Positions 1 to 29,767 of a DNA stretch of 30,361 bases are shown piece after piece. Source of the stretch: a virus; IMG/VR virus record IMGVR_UViG_3300035458_000016, positions 1 through 30,361 of that record; one strand, written 5' to 3'. The position numbers and the translations under genes are program-made. How positions within the stretch are numbered: position 1 is the first letter of the stretch; every line of letters starts with the position of its first letter. The notes under the pieces were generated by a model. That model was not told the DNA's origin, made no database searches, and worked only from the letters and a program-made list of their open reading frames with translations.

Positions 1-830
1 AGCTCGGCCAAGTCGGCGGCAGAAGGCTCGGCCGGGACGTTGGCCGCGGCGTTCTGGGACCGGGGCGGGGCGGCTCTACTCGCCGCTGGAGCCGGGGTGG
101 TCGGCGACTTAGGCTCGCTGGGCACGTTCTCTTCCATGTCCTGCGTGAAGATCCCCGACGCGCCAGTCGTGCGCAGCGTCGCATCGACATAAGCGCGCTT
201 CTCGGCCATCTTCATGATCGTGTTGGCGAGGTCGTGCGGGTCCGGGTTGTCGATCCGACCCACGTGCTGCTCAGTTACAGCCGGATCGTCATCCTTCGCC
301 GTCTGCCAACCGCAGCCACCCTTCTCGCGCCAGCAATACCAACCGCTGCGCGGCGGCCTAGAGTGTCGGAGGTCCTTGCCGCATTCCGGGCACTTCAATC
401 GATCGTCCCGGTATCGGTACTTGACCTCCCAACTCGAACAGGTGCCCTTCCCCATACCAACGACTGGACCATCGAAGGAGCCGACATGCAACCAACAGGT
501 TGCGTCATAGGCAATTCCGGGAGTGGTCACACTGTCGCCGGGCATCGACTTCGCTTCGATTCGGGCCACGAGCCCATAAGCCAGGCAGAGTTTTTCGGCG
601 CCCGGCTTGGCGAGGCTCGGCTTATCCACACCAGGAACGTTGCCGTAGTCCACCTCATCGATCAGGAGGGCGGTCTGCATCTGCTTGAGGCGCTGTTGGC
701 CCTTCTTGATCGCCTCCAGATTGCGCTCGAATTCCGCGTCGCTTAGTTCCGCCAGTGCGCGCACACCGACGGGCTGAGGAATCGTGGTCATACCCCGTTC
801 GGTGTACTCGGCTTCGATCGGGTCAGTCAT
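1..830 (-). CDS. Zinc-ribbon phage protein of the early/recombination region, C-terminus cut by window edge
   Basis: The frame is open from an ATG at 830 to the left edge, giving 276 codons without the C-terminus. The start is preceded by a purine-rich GAGGAAGAGG and overlaps the upstream nuclease gene by 8 bases. The first third contains DYGNVPGVDKPSLAKPGAEK (residues 61-80), a pattern I recall from phage and plasmid proteins of unknown function encoded near nucleases. Residues C147, C150, C166 and C173 form a probable zinc ribbon. They are followed by a conserved-looking helix with NTIMKMAEKRAYVDATLR (203-220) and FTQDMEE, then a Pro/Ala-rich linker that continues past the edge. Coupling to a RecB-like nuclease suggests a DNA-binding or recombination role; that is inference. 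The coding frame is certain and the function is not. Confidence 0.8.
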   Translation of the reverse strand, partial: MTDPIEAEYTERGMTTIPQPVGVRALAELSDAEFERNLEAIKKGQQRLKQMQTALLIDEVDYGNVPGVDKPSLAKPGAEKLCLAYGLVARIEAKSMPGDSVTTPGIAYDATCWLHVGSFDGPVVGMGKGTCSSWEVKYRYRDDRLKCPECGKDLRHSRPPRSGWYCWREKGGCGWQTAKDDDPAVTEQHVGRIDNPDPHDLANTIMKMAEKRAYVDATLRTTGASGIFTQDMEENVPSEPKSPTTPAPAASRAAPPRSQNAAANVPAEPSAADLAE

Positions 831-1662
831 CCTCTTCCTCCGCGACGGCCATCTTGCAAGGTCCCCCATACAGGGGGTTGAACCGGCATCCCTGGCAGAA
901 GCGGCCGTTGATGACGCCGCCGGGGAAGGTCCAGTTCTGGGGTTTCTGATTACGGTTCAACACTTCGTCAGCTCGCACCGCTCGGATGTAGGCCGCGACT
1001 CGTTCGTAGGCCCAGCCGCGCATGTCATCCGTGACGAACGTGGAGATGGTTTGCCAGTAGGGCGTCTTGAGACGGATCCAGGCGAGGTATCCCACCTCCG
1101 GCACGATCAGGCCGGTGTCCTCTTCGACCATGACGGCGTACAGGATCAGTTCCAAAGTTCGGGCGGTGTACTTGCGCCGCTTGGCCGTCTTCACGTCGTA
1201 GATTTCATTCGACGCGAGGATTAGATCCGGGTGCCCGTCCACTTCTCCGAGGTCCCATATAGGGACGTGGATGTGAGCTTGCCTCCGGCAGAAGGCCCAA
1301 TCGTGGTCGTTGAGCGGAGCTCGCTGGCGTTCCTCGCCCTTCTTCGCCGGCGGCTGCGCCTCGTCGTCGTAGAAGGCCCGTACTGCGACTTCCACCTCGT
1401 CCTGGTCTACTTCTATGCCGTCGCGTTCCTGCGCCTCTGCGGCCGCCGCGAGGGCTCGTGGGAGGTCAATCGGGATACCTGCCCGGGCGCACTCCACCAG
1501 GACTTCCACCCCTCGATCGACGCACGACCCGAATGTCATGTCCGGGTTGGGAATGTAGGGTCGGGGATCGTGGAGGCTGAACCAGGCCCGCTGCTGGCAC
1601 AGGTCGAAATCGATCAGCGCCGACTTGGACAGGCCGGTCCTCTCCGACAGATCAGGCCTCAT
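823..1662 (-). CDS. PD-(D/E)XK exonuclease (RecB/Cas4-like) with probable Fe-S cluster cysteines
   Basis: A 279-residue protein with the core of a PD-(D/E)XK nuclease: GHPDLIL (D146), then EIYDVKTAKRRKY with D156 and K158, then ELILYA (E171, Y175), which stands where RecB-like enzymes have Q..xY. One cysteine near the N-terminus (C22, in DLCQQRAW) and three at the C-terminus (C256, C259, C269) match the spacing logic of the 4Fe-4S cluster in Cas4 and AddB-type nucleases. The likely role is 5' or 3' DNA end resection in phage recombination or replication. ATG at 1662 overlaps the upstream gene by 11 bases. Cas4 itself is unlikely because no CRISPR or cas gene is near. The family call is firm, the Fe-S cluster is inferred and the polarity is unknown. 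Confidence 0.85.
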   Translation of the reverse strand: MRPDLSERTGLSKSALIDFDLCQQRAWFSLHDPRPYIPNPDMTFGSCVDRGVEVLVECARAGIPIDLPRALAAAAEAQERDGIEVDQDEVEVAVRAFYDDEAQPPAKKGEERQRAPLNDHDWAFCRRQAHIHVPIWDLGEVDGHPDLILASNEIYDVKTAKRRKYTARTLELILYAVMVEEDTGLIVPEVGYLAWIRLKTPYWQTISTFVTDDMRGWAYERVAAYIRAVRADEVLNRNQKPQNWTFPGGVINGRFCQGCRFNPLYGGPCKMAVAEEEDD

Positions 1663-2705: not shown

Positions 2706-2793
2706 CGGGGAACGTGGCGAAGATGGGACCGAGGAACCATGAGCCCACGATCAGGACCGCGGCCAGGACGATGGCGTAGCGCAGTGGCTTCAT
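2659..2793 (-). CDS. Small membrane protein, 44 aa
   Basis: ATG 2793 overlaps the stop of the Cro-like gene as ATGA, and the frame ends in TGA at 2659. The product starts MKPLRYAIVLAAVLIVGSWF and stays hydrophobic almost to its end (ATFPVVGVAPFGLAAWALR), so it is probably one long or two short membrane segments. It is the second gene of the leftward early transcript. Tiny membrane proteins next to immunity regions often act in superinfection exclusion or delay of lysis; here that is only an inference from position. Confidence 0.6.
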   Translation of the reverse strand: MKPLRYAIVLAAVLIVGSWFLGPIFATFPVVGVAPFGLAAWALR

Positions 2794-2987
2794 GATGCAA
2801 CCTCTGACGTCAGGTTGCCGTCACGCAGCGCCTTGCGGTACTTGTAGGCGTATCGCTTGGCAGTCGGCTCGTCGTGCTCGATCAGCCAGAGGGTCTGTCG
2901 GGAGATGCCCAACCGCTTCGCCATCACGACCGTGGAGACCTCGGCGAGGCGGCGTCTGTTCCTGAGTTGCTGTCCGAGTGGGTTCAT
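2790..2987 (-). CDS. Cro-like helix-turn-helix regulator, 65 aa
   Basis: The small protein contains an XRE/Cro-type HTH at about residues 18-38 (VVMAKRLGISRQTLWLIEHD), with the usual MAKRLGISRQT turn, and little else, as expected for a Cro-like repressor. It is the first gene of the leftward early transcript and diverges from the larger HTH gene at 3117. A good promoter (TTGACA, 17 bases, TAATCT) lies so close that the predicted first base is the A of ATG 2987, implying leaderless translation. It probably binds the inverted repeats between the two genes. Whether it acts as Cro or as the lysogenic repressor cannot be settled from sequence; its small size and early-operon position favour Cro. 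Confidence 0.8.
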   Translation of the reverse strand: MNPLGQQLRNRRRLAEVSTVVMAKRLGISRQTLWLIEHDEPTAKRYAYKYRKALRDGNLTSEVAS

Positions 2988-3022
2988 GCCCAGAGATTAG
3001 GCGTTCGTCTGCCAGTTGTCAA
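2987..3022 (-). promoter_or_regulatory. Leftward promoter of the early operon, predicted leaderless
   Basis: On the minus strand, TTGACA (3022-3017), a 17-base spacer and TAATCT (2999-2994) are followed by six bases and then the ATG at 2987. The normal start point 7 bases after the -10 box falls on the A of the start codon. The -35 box lies within an 11-base inverted repeat (3014-3024), so a bound repressor would block it. Confidence 0.7.
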
Positions 3023-3095
3023 CTAGTTCTGACGCTTGCTAACTGTCAGCGCGTTGACAGCGCGCACCGCGCGCAGCCGACATTGACAGGTGTCA
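3014..3095. promoter_or_regulatory. Three-operator region between divergent regulators
   Basis: Three perfect inverted repeats built on TGTCA/TGACA or the related TTG.CAA lie in 82 bases: AGTTGTCAACT at 3014-3024, CTGTCA(6)TGACAG at 3043-3060 and TGACAGGTGTCA at 3084-3095. The first covers the -35 box of the leftward promoter and the third covers the -35 box of the rightward one. The second lies between them. The layout resembles a lambda-type right operator with three sites. That they bind the flanking HTH proteins is inferred. Confidence 0.65.
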
Positions 3096-3117
3096 GCCGC
3101 ATGGCAGACTGCACACA
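3083..3117 (+). promoter_or_regulatory. Rightward promoter of the repressor gene, predicted leaderless
   Basis: TTGACA at 3083-3088, a 16-base spacer and CAGACT at 3105-3110 are followed by six bases and ATG 3117. This is the same geometry as the leftward promoter, again placing the expected transcription start on the A of the ATG. The -10 box deviates from TAnnnT in its first base, so the promoter is weaker on paper than its leftward partner. Confidence 0.5.
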
Positions 3118-3566
3118 TGGCATACCGCCCAGCACTACATGGACCCAAGGGGGACTGGGGAAGGTTCCTCGACCAGATGCGCCGGGAGCGCGATTGGAGC
3201 GCGGTCCAGGCGTGGGAGAACCTGCACGGCCTGTTGGGGCTGAGTCCCAAGAGCGTCGCGGTCTACAAGGCCCTCGAGTCCGGCACGCGCAACGTGGCTC
3301 CGGAGGAGGCGGAGGCGCTAAGGGCCTACTTCGGCGGCGGCCCCGAAGGACATCCCGAGTTCGCAGACCCGATGGTCACCGCCCTCACGGCGCAGACGGA
3401 GGCTATAGGAGCCCTCGTTGACGAGCTTCGTTCCTGGAGAACCGAAGATCGCGGACGCCTCTCGGAGTTGGAGGCGTCGGTGCGGACCCTGGTCGCAGGA
3501 GTCCTTGGCGAACCAGGAAACGCAGCCGGAGCCACCCCTCGCGTTCTTCCGGAGACAACGGAATGA
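3117..3566 (+). CDS. HTH repressor-like protein (probable lysogeny regulator), 149 aa
   Basis: Residues 1-75 look like an XRE-family DNA-binding domain: GRFLDQMRRERDWSAVQAWE, then LGLSPKSVAVYKALESGTRN and APEEAEALRAYFGG. The C-terminal half (about 85-130) is a probable coiled coil (ALTAQTEAIGALVDELRSWR, GRLSELEASVRTLVAGVL) suited to dimerisation. There is no LexA/CI-type peptidase domain, so induction would need a mechanism other than self-cleavage. I choose ATG 3117 over GTG 3090 because the promoter and third operator would otherwise lie inside the coding region. It heads a rightward set with a small membrane protein and a lipoprotein hydrolase. The call as the immunity repressor is inference from position. 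Confidence 0.75.
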   Translation: MAYRPALHGPKGDWGRFLDQMRRERDWSAVQAWENLHGLLGLSPKSVAVYKALESGTRNVAPEEAEALRAYFGGGPEGHPEFADPMVTALTAQTEAIGALVDELRSWRTEDRGRLSELEASVRTLVAGVLGEPGNAAGATPRVLPETTE

Positions 3567-3692
3567 GCCCAGCATGCTCATCCACCCCGACACCCCTTCT
3601 GGCCTGTGCGGCCCGGAAAGACGCTAACCACTTGACGTCAGATTGACCATTAGACAGGCGACGTAGGGGTCCACCACTAGAGGGAGACCGTC

Positions 3693-3833
3693 ATGGACGA
3701 CTGGTTTGCACGTCAGAGCAAGACCAAGACTGACAAGGGCCGGTTCCTGCGCTTCTACGTCATCAACTTCGTGCTGGGGCTCGTCGTACTCGCGATCATG
3801 TGGGTCCTGCTCGGCCAGCCCCGACTCTGGTGA
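3693..3833 (+). CDS. Small single-pass membrane protein, 46 aa
   Basis: ATG 3693 follows AGGGAG with six bases between, a good ribosome site. The basic head MDDWFARQSKTKTDKGRF precedes one hydrophobic segment (about residues 22-40, YVINFVLGLVVLAIMWVLLG) and a short tail ending QPRLW. The gene lies between the repressor-like gene and the SGNH lipoprotein on the same strand, which suggests expression in the lysogen. The 126 bases before it contain TTGACG and TTGACC near 3632-3648, but no convincing -10 box. I do not recognise the family; superinfection exclusion or assistance to the lipoprotein are possible but unproven roles. Confidence 0.6.
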   Translation: MDDWFARQSKTKTDKGRFLRFYVINFVLGLVVLAIMWVLLGQPRLW

Positions 3834-3864
3834 ACCTCGACGCCACGGAGTGAGTCCCACGAGC

Positions 3865-4524
3865 ATGAAGCGCTTCGCACTCCTGGCGCTGCTCGTGGCA
3901 GCCTGCGCCGCGCCTGCTCAGGCCCTGGCACCGGCGGCCTCCGTCGCGCCGACCGCCAGCCCGACGCCAGTTCCGTCCGCGAGCCAAGCCCCGATCCGTC
4001 TCGTGACGCTGGGCGACTCCATCACCGCACCGACGAACCCCTGCGGAGCCGGATGGCCGACCCTGCTGCCTCCCGGGATGCTCGTTCACGATGCAGGGGT
4101 CGGGGGGAACGACACGACACAGATGCTCGCCCGCCTCCAGTCCGACGTTCTCGCCTACCACCCCACCGACGTTGCGGTCATGGCCGGGACGAACGACGTG
4201 AACCGAGGCATACCGAGGACGATCACCCTCGCCAACCTCGGCAGCATCATCGGCCAAACACAAGCGAGCGGCGCGACCGTCTGGCTGCTGACGATCCCGC
4301 CGTATGAGGCGCCGTGGGGCAAGTCCTCAGACGCGGCGGTGGCGGCCTACAACGCTGACCTCCGCACGCTGACCGTAGCCAGCGGTGCCCGCCTGATCGA
4401 CTCGTGGAACAAGTTGGCGATGCCGGATGGGGCATGGTCGGTCGCTCTCACTTGCGATCTGATCCATCCCTCGGGTCCCGGCGCCTATCTGGTCGCGCTC
4501 ACGGTCGAGGCGGCCCTGCTCTAG
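3865..4524 (+). CDS. SGNH/GDSL-family hydrolase, predicted lipoprotein, 219 aa
   Basis: The protein starts MKRFALLALLVAACAAPAQA, a short signal peptide with a lipobox (VAAC, Cys14), followed by an Ala/Pro/Ser/Thr linker to about residue 43. The catalytic domain carries the SGNH blocks: GDSIT (S52), a GVGGND block (G80-N82), GTND (N110) and DLIHPS (D198, H201). Such enzymes are serine esterases that remove acetyl or acyl groups from sugars or lipids. Phages often have them in tails, but here a lipoprotein signal and separate plus-strand transcription point to anchoring on the lysogen's own surface, perhaps altering a receptor. Its stop overlaps the stop of the convergent tail gene in one CTAG. 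Substrate unknown. Confidence 0.85.
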   Translation: MKRFALLALLVAACAAPAQALAPAASVAPTASPTPVPSASQAPIRLVTLGDSITAPTNPCGAGWPTLLPPGMLVHDAGVGGNDTTQMLARLQSDVLAYHPTDVAVMAGTNDVNRGIPRTITLANLGSIIGQTQASGATVWLLTIPPYEAPWGKSSDAAVAAYNADLRTLTVASGARLIDSWNKLAMPDGAWSVALTCDLIHPSGPGAYLVALTVEAALL

Positions 4525-11412: not shown

Positions 11413-11841
11413 CTACTCGCCATAGCCCTCCACGGTGAAAGCGGTTGCGAAATAGGCCGTCTGGTCGCCGCCCTTGATCCAGTCCGGCATATAGGCGGGA
11501 AGATCCTCGATGGCGGTGACGCCCGAGACGGTGTTAGGGCCGGCGGCGTCCTTGTTGGCGGCCCACCAGTCGATAAAGCCGTCCACAAAGGCGTCACGTT
11601 GCTTGACAGCGACCGCCGAATCGAAGAGGCCCCACACGACCAGGACGACGGCTGTAGGCGTCTGGCGCATCAGGCCGTCGTAGGCGATCTTGGAGGTCAT
11701 CGTGTCCACGAAAGCGCGCGGCAGGACGTCCATGAGCCCGGGACGCCCGGGCGAGGTCGCGAGTTTCACGCCTGCTGTCGCGGCGTAATCCTTGAGCAGG
11801 CCCACGGCCCCAACTCGCAGATCGGCGTTAAGCGTGCTCAT
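11413..11841 (-). CDS. Tail terminator-like protein, 142 aa
   Basis: The protein starts MSTLNADLRVGAVGLLKDYA, follows the HK97 gp10-like gene through an ATGA overlap and precedes the major tail gene; this is the tail terminator position in HK97-like phages. It has an N-terminal helix, then alternating strands and helices (PTAVVLVVWGLFDSAVAVKQ, FVDGFIDWWAANKDAAGP), and an acidic aromatic end (FATAFTVEGYGE). The terminator caps the tail tube and joins it to the head. No active site is expected. The 72 bases after it hold a short inverted repeat (CGACC, 6 bases, GGTCG) but no T-run. Confidence 0.65.
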   Translation of the reverse strand: MSTLNADLRVGAVGLLKDYAATAGVKLATSPGRPGLMDVLPRAFVDTMTSKIAYDGLMRQTPTAVVLVVWGLFDSAVAVKQRDAFVDGFIDWWAANKDAAGPNTVSGVTAIEDLPAYMPDWIKGGDQTAYFATAFTVEGYGE

Positions 11842-12934: not shown

Positions 12935-14655
12935 TGGCCCGACCTCACCTTCGGTATGTCGCTGGGCCCCTCGGTCATGCCGATGTAGGTTGGGCTGACC
13001 CAGACGTGCATCTGCGCTCGAGGACCCGGTGCCGACCCAAAGACCACCGTGGCGTCCCCGGCGGAGCCGGAGCCCTGAGCCATGGCGACCGCGATCAGGA
13101 GTTGGGGCGAGGCGCCGAACGCCTGCCCGACACCGGCCGCCTGCTGCGCGGCGACAAACACGAACGGCAGCAGCTCGGCCCCGGCATCGAATGCGTTTCC
13201 AGATCCGGAAGCGAGACCCGCAGGGGCAAGCGTCTCGTGCAGCGTGGAGATCGCGGCGGTCCATGACGCGCCGGACCCGCTCGCGAGGCTGGCCGCGGCT
13301 GTGACGCCGGCCGCCGCCGGCTGGGCCAAACCCGAGCCGGAAGCGAGGCCGCCCATGGCCCCGAGGTCGGCCAGAGCCGAGCCTGCGGCTCCGGTGGCGC
13401 TGGCAAGCCCGCAGGGAGTGCGGATGCTCGCAGTGGCACTCTGAGCCACGCAGGTGGCGGTCGCGGCGCCCGGCTGCGCGCCGACCGCTGCCAGGGCCGC
13501 TGAGGCCATACCCGATCCGCTGGCCAGGCCGCTCGAGCAGGCCCGGACCAGGACGGTGGCGCCCTGGGCCCCTGCGCTGGCCGAGGCGAGTTGCGCCTGG
13601 GCCGAGGTGATCCGGAAGGCCGAGACGGTCGCCGGCGATGCGGCGCCTGTGGCGGCAGCGTTCCCCGCCATCGCCGCGAGGAGGGCCGTGGCGCTCTGTG
13701 CCGCCCCCGTGCCCGAAGCGAGACCCGCCGGCGCGTTGCGGGCCGGGAAGGCCGCAACGGTCGCGGCGCCGGCAGCGCCGGTGGCCGAGGCGCAGGCGGG
13801 CATGGCGCTGATGAAGACGGCAGGGGCCTGCGCCGCTCCGGTTCCACTGGCGAGGGCCGCCGGGGCCACAGCCGTGTCGAGGGTCGTGGCGTTCGAGGCC
13901 GTGCCGGATCCGGAAGCCAGTCCTGCAGGAGCCACGGCCGTGTCGAGCGTGGTGGCATTCGAGGTGGCACCGGTACCCGAGGCGACACCCGCGCTGGCGA
14001 CGAGGGACGGCATCTCGAGGATGAAGACCGACTCGGCGATGTTGACCGCGGCGGTGCCGGTCCAGGTCTCCGTCGTGCCCGGTTGGTAGGTCTGCGCGGT
14101 GACGAGCTTGTAGCAGTTGGCCGATTCGACGTAGCTCGTGCCGGTCCCGCCGTTGGCCGAAGCGCCGGCGCTGTAGGTGGACGCCGCGGCGGTGCCGTTG
14201 CCGCCGTAGAGCATCGAGGCCAGGATGTTGAACGCGCCGTTGCGGCTGGCGCCGGCGGTCGTGCCGGACGTCGTGACCGTCAGCGAGCTCGAGTTGTACT
14301 TGCCGACGTAGTCGTTCGAGGATGGCGTCGCCTTGGAGGCGACCTGGTAGGCGATGCAGGTCGCGCTGGCCTTGCAGCTGGTGATGGTGACCGCGACGTT
14401 TCCCGCGGAAACTTCGGTGCTGGTGACGACCTTCCAGAAGCACTTCTGCGCCAGGGCGGTGCCGGAGTTGGTCTGTGATCCGAGGGCGGTCCAGCCGCCT
14501 GGGGTCGTGTAGGTGATGCCGGATCCGCCGACGCAGCCGATGCCCATGAGAAGGACATCGCCCACCGCGATGCCAGTCGGGAACGTGACGGTGATGGACG
14601 TGCCACCGGCGCCGTTGTTGCTCCCGACTGACGTTCCGCGAGGGGCGATGCTCAC
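12931..14655 (-). CDS. Ala/Gly-rich tandem-repeat virion protein (fibre-like), 574 aa
   Basis: GTG 14655 with AGGAG nine to ten bases upstream gives MSIAPRGTSVGSNNGAGGTS. Residues 1 to about 215 form a Gly/Ser/Thr-rich beta domain (GDVLLMGIGCVGGSGITYTT; PGTTETWTGTAAVNIAESVF), of a kind seen in phage virion decoration or fibre proteins. Residues 217-545 are about 15 imperfect repeats of 18-26 residues built on AGLASGSGTAxxATxLxxAV. A short end domain (MHVWVSPTYIGMTEGPSDIP) follows. I infer an extended, repetitive surface fibre or adhesive appendage. It sits among head genes, so head decoration is as likely as tail attachment. Confidence 0.7.
   Translation of the reverse strand: MSIAPRGTSVGSNNGAGGTSITVTFPTGIAVGDVLLMGIGCVGGSGITYTTPGGWTALGSQTNSGTALAQKCFWKVVTSTEVSAGNVAVTITSCKASATCIAYQVASKATPSSNDYVGKYNSSSLTVTTSGTTAGASRNGAFNILASMLYGGNGTAAASTYSAGASANGGTGTSYVESANCYKLVTAQTYQPGTTETWTGTAAVNIAESVFILEMPSLVASAGVASGTGATSNATTLDTAVAPAGLASGSGTASNATTLDTAVAPAALASGTGAAQAPAVFISAMPACASATGAAGAATVAAFPARNAPAGLASGTGAAQSATALLAAMAGNAAATGAASPATVSAFRITSAQAQLASASAGAQGATVLVRACSSGLASGSGMASAALAAVGAQPGAATATCVAQSATASIRTPCGLASATGAAGSALADLGAMGGLASGSGLAQPAAAGVTAAASLASGSGASWTAAISTLHETLAPAGLASGSGNAFDAGAELLPFVFVAAQQAAGVGQAFGASPQLLIAVAMAQGSGSAGDATVVFGSAPGPRAQMHVWVSPTYIGMTEGPSDIPKVRSGQ
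13021..14007 (-). repeat. Degenerate ~66-bp tandem repeats coding 22-residue units
   Basis: About 15 units encode the pattern GLASGxGxAxxAT. The two units nearest the start, beginning near 13865 and 13931 on the plus strand, are nearly identical with a 66-base period, suggesting recent duplication. Other units have diverged strongly at DNA level and vary between about 18 and 26 residues. Confidence 0.75.
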
Positions 14656-26231: not shown

Positions 26232-26434
26232 CGCGGCGCCCGTTGGAGCCTCAGAACCTGCCCATCTCGGACGACTCGGCCGTAGTGGCTGACACAGCGT
26301 GGTACCCAGCCCTGTCCTTGACAGACCTCTGTATTGACAGGGATCCGGCACATCTCCTTGTCCTTGCAACACCAGCCGCACGGTTTGGAGTCGGCGACGA
26401 TGCGCCAGATGGGGTCCGGGCAGAGGTCGTTCAT
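26228..26434 (-). CDS. Cys-rich hypothetical protein, 68 aa
   Basis: ATG 26434 overlaps the methyltransferase stop (ATGA). The product contains MNDLCPDPIWRIVADSKPCG, WCCKDKEMCRIP and WVPRCVSHYGRVVRDGQVLR, with seven cysteines that could bind a metal. It is coupled to a DNA methyltransferase upstream. Function unknown. Confidence 0.55.
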   Translation of the reverse strand: MNDLCPDPIWRIVADSKPCGWCCKDKEMCRIPVNTEVCQGQGWVPRCVSHYGRVVRDGQVLRLQRAPR

Positions 26435-28169: not shown

Positions 28170-28465
28170 TTCGCTCCTATCGCATGGTCTAGATCGGCAG
28201 CAGCTCGTTTGTCAGCTTCCTCTGCGCGCCGGATGTATGTCCCTTGGCGACGGGCATAGACCTCGATCCTGTCCATGAACCAGTCGTCGTGTCGAGCTGT
28301 GGAGGTCACCGGACCCAGGTGATAGCGGCCGCCGCGCGGACCTCGGGCCTCCGTCATATCGGCAAGCACACGCGCGATTTCGGCCTCAGCCCCTTCGGGA
28401 TTGTCGCGATAGAACTCGCCAGAAACCATAACTATCGACACCATTGGCCGAGTTCGCGCCATCAC
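28166..28465 (-). CDS. Hypothetical protein, 99 aa
   Basis: ATG 28465 overlaps the integrase stop as ATGA. The product starts MMARTRPMVSIVMVSGEFYR and shows strand, helix (DNPEGAEAEIARVLADMTEA), strand (GRYHLGPVTSTARHDDWFMD), and a long basic helix ending in TYIRRAEEADKRAAADLDHA. It is a small mixed fold of unknown function, translationally coupled to the integrase. Confidence 0.6.
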   Translation of the reverse strand: MMARTRPMVSIVMVSGEFYRDNPEGAEAEIARVLADMTEARGPRGGRYHLGPVTSTARHDDWFMDRIEVYARRQGTYIRRAEEADKRAAADLDHAIGAK

Positions 28466-29622
28466 TTACCTCCGATCACTCGGTTGAGGGTGGCGGCGGC
28501 ATCTTTGTCCGGCTGCTCTCCGCCGCCCGCGTAGTACCTTGCCATCGTGACCGTGGCGTGCCCGAGACGAGCCATTCGGACGTCTTCGGGAACTCCGGCG
28601 TTTTGTAGTAGGGCCGCATTGGAATGCCGTAATCCGTGACAGCCCACTCTCGGGAGTCCGAGTCGGTCTTCGGCGGCGTAGAGCGCCTTTATGACGTCGC
28701 GTTCGTGGAGGGGCCAGCCTCGCGGGGAGGTGAAGACCAACCCGAACTCCACGCCCATGCGGCGCTTGTGCTCCGTCAGGGCCGAGAGAGCGAATCCGGG
28801 AAGCGCCACGCGTTCGACGCTCCGCGCGGCTTTGGTGGGGACGCGGACCCATTCACCGTTTCGCCTTGCGAGTTGGGCGTGAACCCTCACAGATCCTGTG
28901 AGGTCCACGTCGCCCCAGGTCAGCCCCAGGGCTTCGGATATCCGCAGTCCGGTTCCCAGGAGGAGCGCCCACAAGGGTCCAAGACGATCTGAGGCGGTGC
29001 CTTCCAGGAGAATCCCGGCTTGTGAAGCGTCCAAGGTGGTGGCATGGAACGCCGGGACCTTCGGGGCTTCGGTGCCGTCCATCGGGTTACGTAGCAGGAT
29101 CCGCCGCCTCACGGCTCGGTTGAGCGCGGCGCGCAAGACGGCCCGGCGCTTGGCGATCGACGCCGGACCCCCCTCCATGCCATCCAGCCATCTCTGAATG
29201 GCTCTGGGTCCAAGGGATCCCATCATCACCGTCCCCAGAGTCGGGATGATGTGCTGCTCCACTGCTCCGCGGTAGCTCACGATTGTTGCGGGAGAGGCAT
29301 CCATGTCAGCGATCCAGGAGCGGAGGTACGCCGCGAGGGTCAAGCGGCTGGCTGGGATGTCGAGTTCGGCGTCCCGCTCCGCCAGCATCTCGCGCAGCAG
29401 CTCCTTGGCCGCCTCGTGGCACTCGCGACATTTGGGATCGGCGGCGGGTCGATGCCTCGGGCAGTTCTGATGCCACGGCACCTGGCGCTCGGCCCGGCCG
29501 CCCGGCATCGTGACGGCCACGAAGAACCGGCGCGACCGGCTCCGGAAGATGATCGAGCCCTCGTTGTGAGCTCTCAGGGGTGACGCCTCCTGGCGCCAGT
29601 TTACGCGCGGCGATCCAGGCAT
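28462..29622 (-). CDS. int: Tyrosine-family integrase, 386 aa
   Basis: Catalytic residues of a tyrosine recombinase are all present: R227 in GTGLRISEALGLTW, K264 region (RVPTKAARS), H329 and R332 in CHGLRHSNAALL, H355 in ARLGHATVTM and Y364 in ARYYAG. The N-terminal arm-binding part (GSIIFRSRSRRFFVAVTMPG) carries an unusual Cys/His insertion around 54-69 (CPRHRP, CREC). The core-binding helices run from LTLAAYLRSWIADMDASPAT. I choose ATG 29622, preceded by GGAGG at six bases; a CTG at 29577 after AGGAGG is an alternative. The start lies inside the HTH gene. It inserts the phage at an attachment site that I could not identify. Confidence 0.9.
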   Translation of the reverse strand: MPGSPRVNWRQEASPLRAHNEGSIIFRSRSRRFFVAVTMPGGRAERQVPWHQNCPRHRPAADPKCRECHEAAKELLREMLAERDAELDIPASRLTLAAYLRSWIADMDASPATIVSYRGAVEQHIIPTLGTVMMGSLGPRAIQRWLDGMEGGPASIAKRRAVLRAALNRAVRRRILLRNPMDGTEAPKVPAFHATTLDASQAGILLEGTASDRLGPLWALLLGTGLRISEALGLTWGDVDLTGSVRVHAQLARRNGEWVRVPTKAARSVERVALPGFALSALTEHKRRMGVEFGLVFTSPRGWPLHERDVIKALYAAEDRLGLPRVGCHGLRHSNAALLQNAGVPEDVRMARLGHATVTMARYYAGGGEQPDKDAAATLNRVIGGK

Positions 29623-29767
29623 CGACGTCCTCCACTGCGAACCGGACCAGCCGGCCGAGCCGGGCATAGGGCAGGTGGCCGGCCCGGGCCTCGCGGCGCA
29701 CGAAGTCAGGCGATGCTTCGATCATCGTCGCGACGGTGCGGGCGGAGACCCAGCCGGCGTTGGTCAT
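29306..29767 (-). CDS. Excisionase-like HTH protein, ORF overlapping integrase, up to 153 aa
   Basis: The first 65 residues form a winged-helix excisionase/AlpA-type domain: WVSARTVATMIEASPDFVRR, EARAGHLPYARLGRLVRFAV and EDVDAWIAARKL, with the recognition helix, the GHLPYARLG wing and the closing DAWI helix. Related proteins usually stop soon afterwards. Here the frame stays open another 86 residues inside the integrase gene with low-complexity Arg/Pro sequence, so only the N-terminal part looks selected. ATG 29767 overlaps the upstream gene (ATGA). It would bend DNA at the attachment site and direct excision, or regulate the integrase. Transcription is shared with the integrase. Confidence 0.75.
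   Translation of the reverse strand: MTNAGWVSARTVATMIEASPDFVRREARAGHLPYARLGRLVRFAVEDVDAWIAARKLAPGGVTPESSQRGLDHLPEPVAPVLRGRHDAGRPGRAPGAVASELPEASTRRRSQMSRVPRGGQGAAARDAGGAGRRTRHPSQPLDPRGVPPLLDR

Follow-up and report, generated by a model that had tools for sequence, protein, structure and literature searches.

A compact divergent regulatory region with three related operators and predicted leaderless or near-leaderless regulator genes in five uncultured high-GC phages

Results

The window analysed here is the whole of IMG/VR virus record IMGVR_UViG_3300035458_000016, with a length of 30,361 bp and a GC content of 66%. Its genes, which include those for tyrosine integrase, terminase, portal, capsid, and tape measure, are nearly all oriented leftward. 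The preliminary description had reported two divergent HTH genes separated by 129 bases, and the ORFs confirmed this: two genes for XRE-type HTH proteins diverge from an intergenic region of 129 bp (2988-3116). The two regulator genes flank a short operator region, which is a layout of the cI/Cro type. The window also has features of a temperate phage, that is, an integrase gene and a lytic arm with early genes (Table 1). The nearest relatives of the terminase are those of actinophages (26%), and therefore the host is probably actinobacterial, although this indication is weak. A host search with the tail gene of the window in GTDB genomes gave no match. Downstream of the repressor-like gene, a small probable membrane protein (3694-3833, +) and a GDSL/SGNH lipase (3859-4524, +) are encoded, which are possible lysogenic-conversion or exclusion genes. 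Elsewhere in the window, a pair of TTGACA hexamers with 16 bp between them was found near a DNA methyltransferase gene (26318-26339, +).

Table 1. Positions of the regulator genes, operators, promoter elements, and marker genes in the window
Feature	Position	Strand	Remarks
PD-(D/E)XK exonuclease-like gene, leftward arm	823..1662	-	Pfam PDDEXK_1 above cut-off, PHROG 1706; marks the arm as early lytic
Cro-like HTH gene (65 aa)	2790..2987	-	First in leftward early arm; predicted leaderless; Pfam HTH_31 at cut-off
Leftward -10 box TAATCT	2994..2999	-	17 bp from -35, 6 bp from ATG; A-11 and T-7 invariant in five phages
Left operator TGCCAGTTGTCA	3010..3021		1 mismatch to TGACANNTGTCA; overlaps leftward -35
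Leftward -35 box TTGACA	3017..3022	-	
Middle operator TGCTAACTGTCA	3037..3048		2 mismatches; perfect copy at the middle in L016 and L022
Middle inverted repeat of the preliminary description, CTGTCAGCGCGTTGACAG	3043..3060		Present in the sequence, not conserved
Rightward -35 box TTGACA	3083..3088	+	
Right operator TGACAGGTGTCA	3084..3095		Exact; overlaps rightward -35
Rightward -10 box CAGACT	3105..3110	+	16 bp from -35, 6 bp from ATG; TG one base upstream (extended -10)
Repressor-like HTH gene (149 aa)	3117..3566	+	Predicted leaderless or near-leaderless; weak HTH_31
Tyrosine integrase gene	28462..29667	-	PHROG 1, E 6e-53; marks a temperate phage

The repressor-like protein has an N-terminal HTH, which is weak at the sequence level, and a probable C-terminal coiled coil. 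A profile of the Cro-like protein, built from five homologues, matched the HTH protein 2k9q (E 7e-7) and, weakly, 434 Cro (E 0.006). The profile search with the repressor gave no meaningful relative, and the two proteins thus do not both show sequence homology to their lambdoid counterparts. A tblastn search of the regulators against 50,697 phage records gave no match and revealed no homology to a known phage repressor. Nothing was found among named phages with the regulators, among plasmids with the L014 repressor, or among GTDB genomes with the window repressor. The AlphaFold model of the Cro-like protein was of moderate quality (pLDDT 73) and that of the repressor was too poor for use (pLDDT 48); structure searches with both models gave no significant match. 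GTG at 3090 was considered as an upstream start of the repressor gene and was rejected, since conservation starts at the ATG and L002, one of the relatives described below, lacks that GTG and has an in-frame TGA upstream. An antisense ORF (LIPLSPEEREGWLRLRFLVRQGLL; 3403-3585, -) lies within the 3' end of the repressor gene and is similar to a minus-strand ORF of L002 (~4156-4302). Possibly this ORF is a small gene in convergent orientation; codon-position GC did not clearly favour either strand as the coding one.

The same operators and promoter plan were present in four further uncultured high-GC phages (L002, L014, L016, and L022). L002 was the sole relative found by protein search, with 78% identity over 63 aa for the repressor and 40% for the Cro-like protein; a search for relatives by the exonuclease gave nothing. 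A DNA pattern combining both -35/operator boxes with the -10 box of the repressor arm returned 17 loci, including the contig of L002 itself. L014, L016, and L022 were recovered by this pattern alone and proved to have homologues of the two regulators at the expected positions, which provides independent confirmation. AT-rich matches in L012, L013, L015, L017, L019-L021, and L023-L026 lacked a homologous HTH pair and were judged to be chance matches. At L011 7637-7725 and L018 4170-4258 there is an unrelated divergent pair, in which the right arm looks leaderless (TTGACA-N16-TACTGT-N7-ATG) and a purine-rich leader precedes the XRE gene on the left. Within the family, the L002 repressor (4010-4207) is only 65 aa long, with the HTH present and the coiled coil at the C-terminus missing. 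The L022 repressor (11433-11726) diverges after ~32 aa; both differences are either real variants or sequence errors. L008, which shares the tail gene of the window (52%), carries at the corresponding position two divergent HTH genes unrelated to those of the window (13301-13657, -; 13769-13981, +), with an operator-like palindrome, GGACGGGGTACCGTCC. Therefore, the immunity module appears to have been exchanged.

Comparison of the window with its relatives defined a 12-bp operator, TGACA-N2-TGTCA (TGACANNTGTCA). The region had previously been described as a three-operator switch with three perfect inverted repeats of related sequence. All three repeats exist (AGTTGTCAACT at 3014-3024, CTGTCAGCGCGTTGACAG at 3043-3060, and TGACAGGTGTCA at 3084-3095), but their spacers differ (1, 6, and 2), and therefore they are not copies of one operator. 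The three-operator plan itself is conserved in the five phages, with 3037-3048 as the best position for the middle copy in the window; the repeat described before (3043-3060) lacks such conservation and was rejected as the middle operator. The overlap of the outer operators with both -35 boxes, also proposed earlier, is directly visible and is supported by its conservation in all five phages; repeated operators thus cover both promoters. The window and L002 each have three operators, with the same position of the left operator and the same left-to-middle spacing (offsets of 23 and 50 from the cro start), and neither record has any other site with one mismatch or less. L016 and L022 have three exact operators each, and the middle operator of L014 is TAACAACTGTTA. 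Twelve sites in the five whole records (165 kb in total) match the operator with no more than one mismatch, and every one of them lies inside the switch; a control with the reversed pattern found no such site in the same 165 kb. None of 20,000 dinucleotide shuffles gave three TGACANNTGTCA sites with two mismatches or fewer. An agnostic palindrome test, in which the motif was not assumed, gave a weaker result (p = 0.009 for the window and 0.001 for L002).

The promoter sequences proposed in the preliminary description, TTGACA-N17-TAATCT-N6-ATG leftward and TTGACA-N16-CAGACT-N6-ATG rightward, were both confirmed. Not one of 20,000 dinucleotide shuffles had, on both arms, an exact TTGACA, a spacer of 16-18 bp, NANNNT, and 5-9 bp to the ATG. 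A generic sigma-70 scan gave no promoter matches: its threshold of 9 of 12 matches is too strict for -10 boxes as weak as these, and they are weak across the family (CAGACT, CAAACT, CACCAT).

On the cro-like arm, TTGACA-N17-NANNNT-N6-ATG was found in four phages, and L022 has a spacer of N18 with N6 kept; the distance from the -10 box to the ATG is 6 bp in all five. Within the 22 nt preceding the ATG, where pairwise identity is 27-55%, the only invariant columns are A-11, T-7, and C-1 (shuffle p = 0.00035). A-11 and T-7 are the two key bases of the -10 box, and C-1 is the initiator pyrimidine expected when RNA starts at the A of the ATG. Since the cro-arm -10 box was left out of the DNA search pattern, this is an independent test, though one subject to common descent. 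The pairing energy of the Shine-Dalgarno region of the cro-like gene is -0.9 kcal/mol, compared with a median of -5.6 for the other 32 genes of the window. A leaderless cro-arm mRNA that starts at the A of the ATG is thus a strong prediction from the sequence.

The repressor arm is less exact. The spacer to the -10 box is N16 in all five phages, three of which (L014, L016, and L022) had been recovered with this box in the search pattern, and the distance from the -10 box to the start codon is 6 bp in the window, 9 bp in L002, L014, and L016, and 7 bp in L022, where the start is GTG. The six-base distance noted earlier therefore holds for the cro-like arm and varies on the repressor arm, and a leader of 0-3 nt is predicted for the repressor mRNA. 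Of the two mRNAs that had been proposed to begin at the A of AUG, the leftward one is strongly predicted from A-11, T-7, and C-1, while the rightward one may be off by 1-3 nt. RNA polymerase usually starts ~7 bases past the -10 box, which together with the longer distances in the relatives argues for a leaderless cro arm combined with an ultrashort leader of 1-3 nt on the repressor arm. Since the window itself has exactly 6 bp and start sites can move to reach a purine, we give this variant a little less than an even chance. The repressor gene of the window has weak Shine-Dalgarno pairing. The repressor genes of L014 and L016 have stronger pairing farther upstream, within the promoter, which is too distant to serve the ATG; in L016 this is GGAGG (-10.7 kcal/mol), ~15 nt from the ATG and within the promoter spacer.

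Since TTGACA sits within the operator palindrome, its exact match to a -35 box is not independent evidence. The hexamers could then be operator half-sites only, with the true promoters elsewhere and ordinary leaders on both genes, and the weakness of the -10 boxes would agree with this. However, NANNNT lies 16-18 bp from TTGACA on both arms of all five phages (on the repressor arm it was in the search pattern for three), the cro ATG is preceded by the invariant A-11, T-7, and C-1, and no Shine-Dalgarno site was found at a usable distance from either ATG of the window. Thus, it is quite unlikely that the hexamers serve as half-sites alone.

Discussion

It is highly probable that this region serves a temperate high-GC phage as its lysis-lysogeny switch, in which three TGACA-N2-TGTCA operators control two divergent promoters. 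The leftward RNA would begin at the A of its ATG and be translated without a leader, and the rightward RNA would begin at its ATG or at most ~3 nt earlier. In the window, L002, and L014, the leftward arm includes genes for an exonuclease or an SbcD-like protein; hence we infer that its first gene encodes a Cro-like early protein, which would open the early lytic operon (exonuclease and others), and that the rightward gene is likely the lysogeny repressor. One or both proteins are predicted to bind the three operator copies as dimers. Because the outer operators contain the -35 boxes, such binding would compete with RNA polymerase, and a bound dimer would block the promoter concerned. The middle operator probably adds cooperativity or helps choose between the arms. 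It is very unlikely that the pair is instead a regulator with a toxin-antitoxin or other non-lysogeny module: antitoxin families are among the weak NCBIfam matches of the 65-aa protein, but the pair adjoins early DNA genes in an integrase-bearing phage, the genes are divergent and do not form an operon, and in the tail-sharing L008 this position is taken by a different pair of divergent HTH genes.

As a probable phage switch, the region is of interest in several respects. Its proteins have no recognisable relative among 50,697 phage records, and the operators, promoters, and start codons of five phages can be aligned base by base. The cro-arm alignment provides an evolutionary argument for leaderless translation for which no RNA data are needed. 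The switch is compact and symmetric, with a -35 box inside an operator on both arms. A link to 70S control is a speculation: selection might keep both arms leaderless, so that the repressor and Cro share a dependence on 70S-type initiation and the lysis decision senses the condition of the ribosome or of initiation factors, which we regard as rather improbable. If the leaderless starts are confirmed, these phages would be a good high-GC model for asking whether leaderless translation affects the lysis decision.

In the OR region of lambda, three related operators lie between the divergent repressor and Cro genes, and the same holds for the three related operators between the repressor and Cro-like genes of the present switch. 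Lambda cro has a leader and the lambda operators are 17 bp long; unlike in lambda, each outer operator here contains a -35 box, and the operator is nearly the same on both arms. The lambda repressor mRNA (cI from PRM) is leaderless (PMC4488713, PMC8630535). The paaR2-ydaS switch of an E. coli O157:H7 prophage is likewise divergent and short (97 bp), and its regulator gene paaR2 is leaderless, as is predicted here; it differs in that only the paaR2 arm has been described as leaderless and in its link to a toxin-antitoxin module (PMC8630535). In the 33-34 region (Prep/PR) of mycobacteriophage BPs, which is also a divergent switch, a 12-bp palindromic operator (CGACATATGTCG) lies over promoter elements, within PR, and immunity depends on integration (PMC4557955). 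The operator of this actinophage has the same length as the one described here and a half-site close to TGACA, whereas the regulators of the window have no sequence match to any named phage. Leaderless transcripts make up close to a quarter of the total in mycobacteria, where a 5'-terminal ATG or GTG suffices (PMC4633059), so that leaderlessness alone would be unsurprising in such a host and need not be a special control.

The closest precedent for the proposed design is PY54, a telomere phage of Yersinia, in which the divergent cI and cro genes give mRNAs that both start at the AUG by RACE (PMC4488713). The present genes are predicted to be leaderless or nearly so, in another host group and with another operator. 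The Cro protein of PY54 has one binding site (OR3) and probably does not repress its own synthesis (PMC4488713), in contrast to the near-identical operators over both -35 boxes here. The double-leaderless cI/cro design is thus already known from PY54; what is new is the switch family, its operator, and its conserved geometry.
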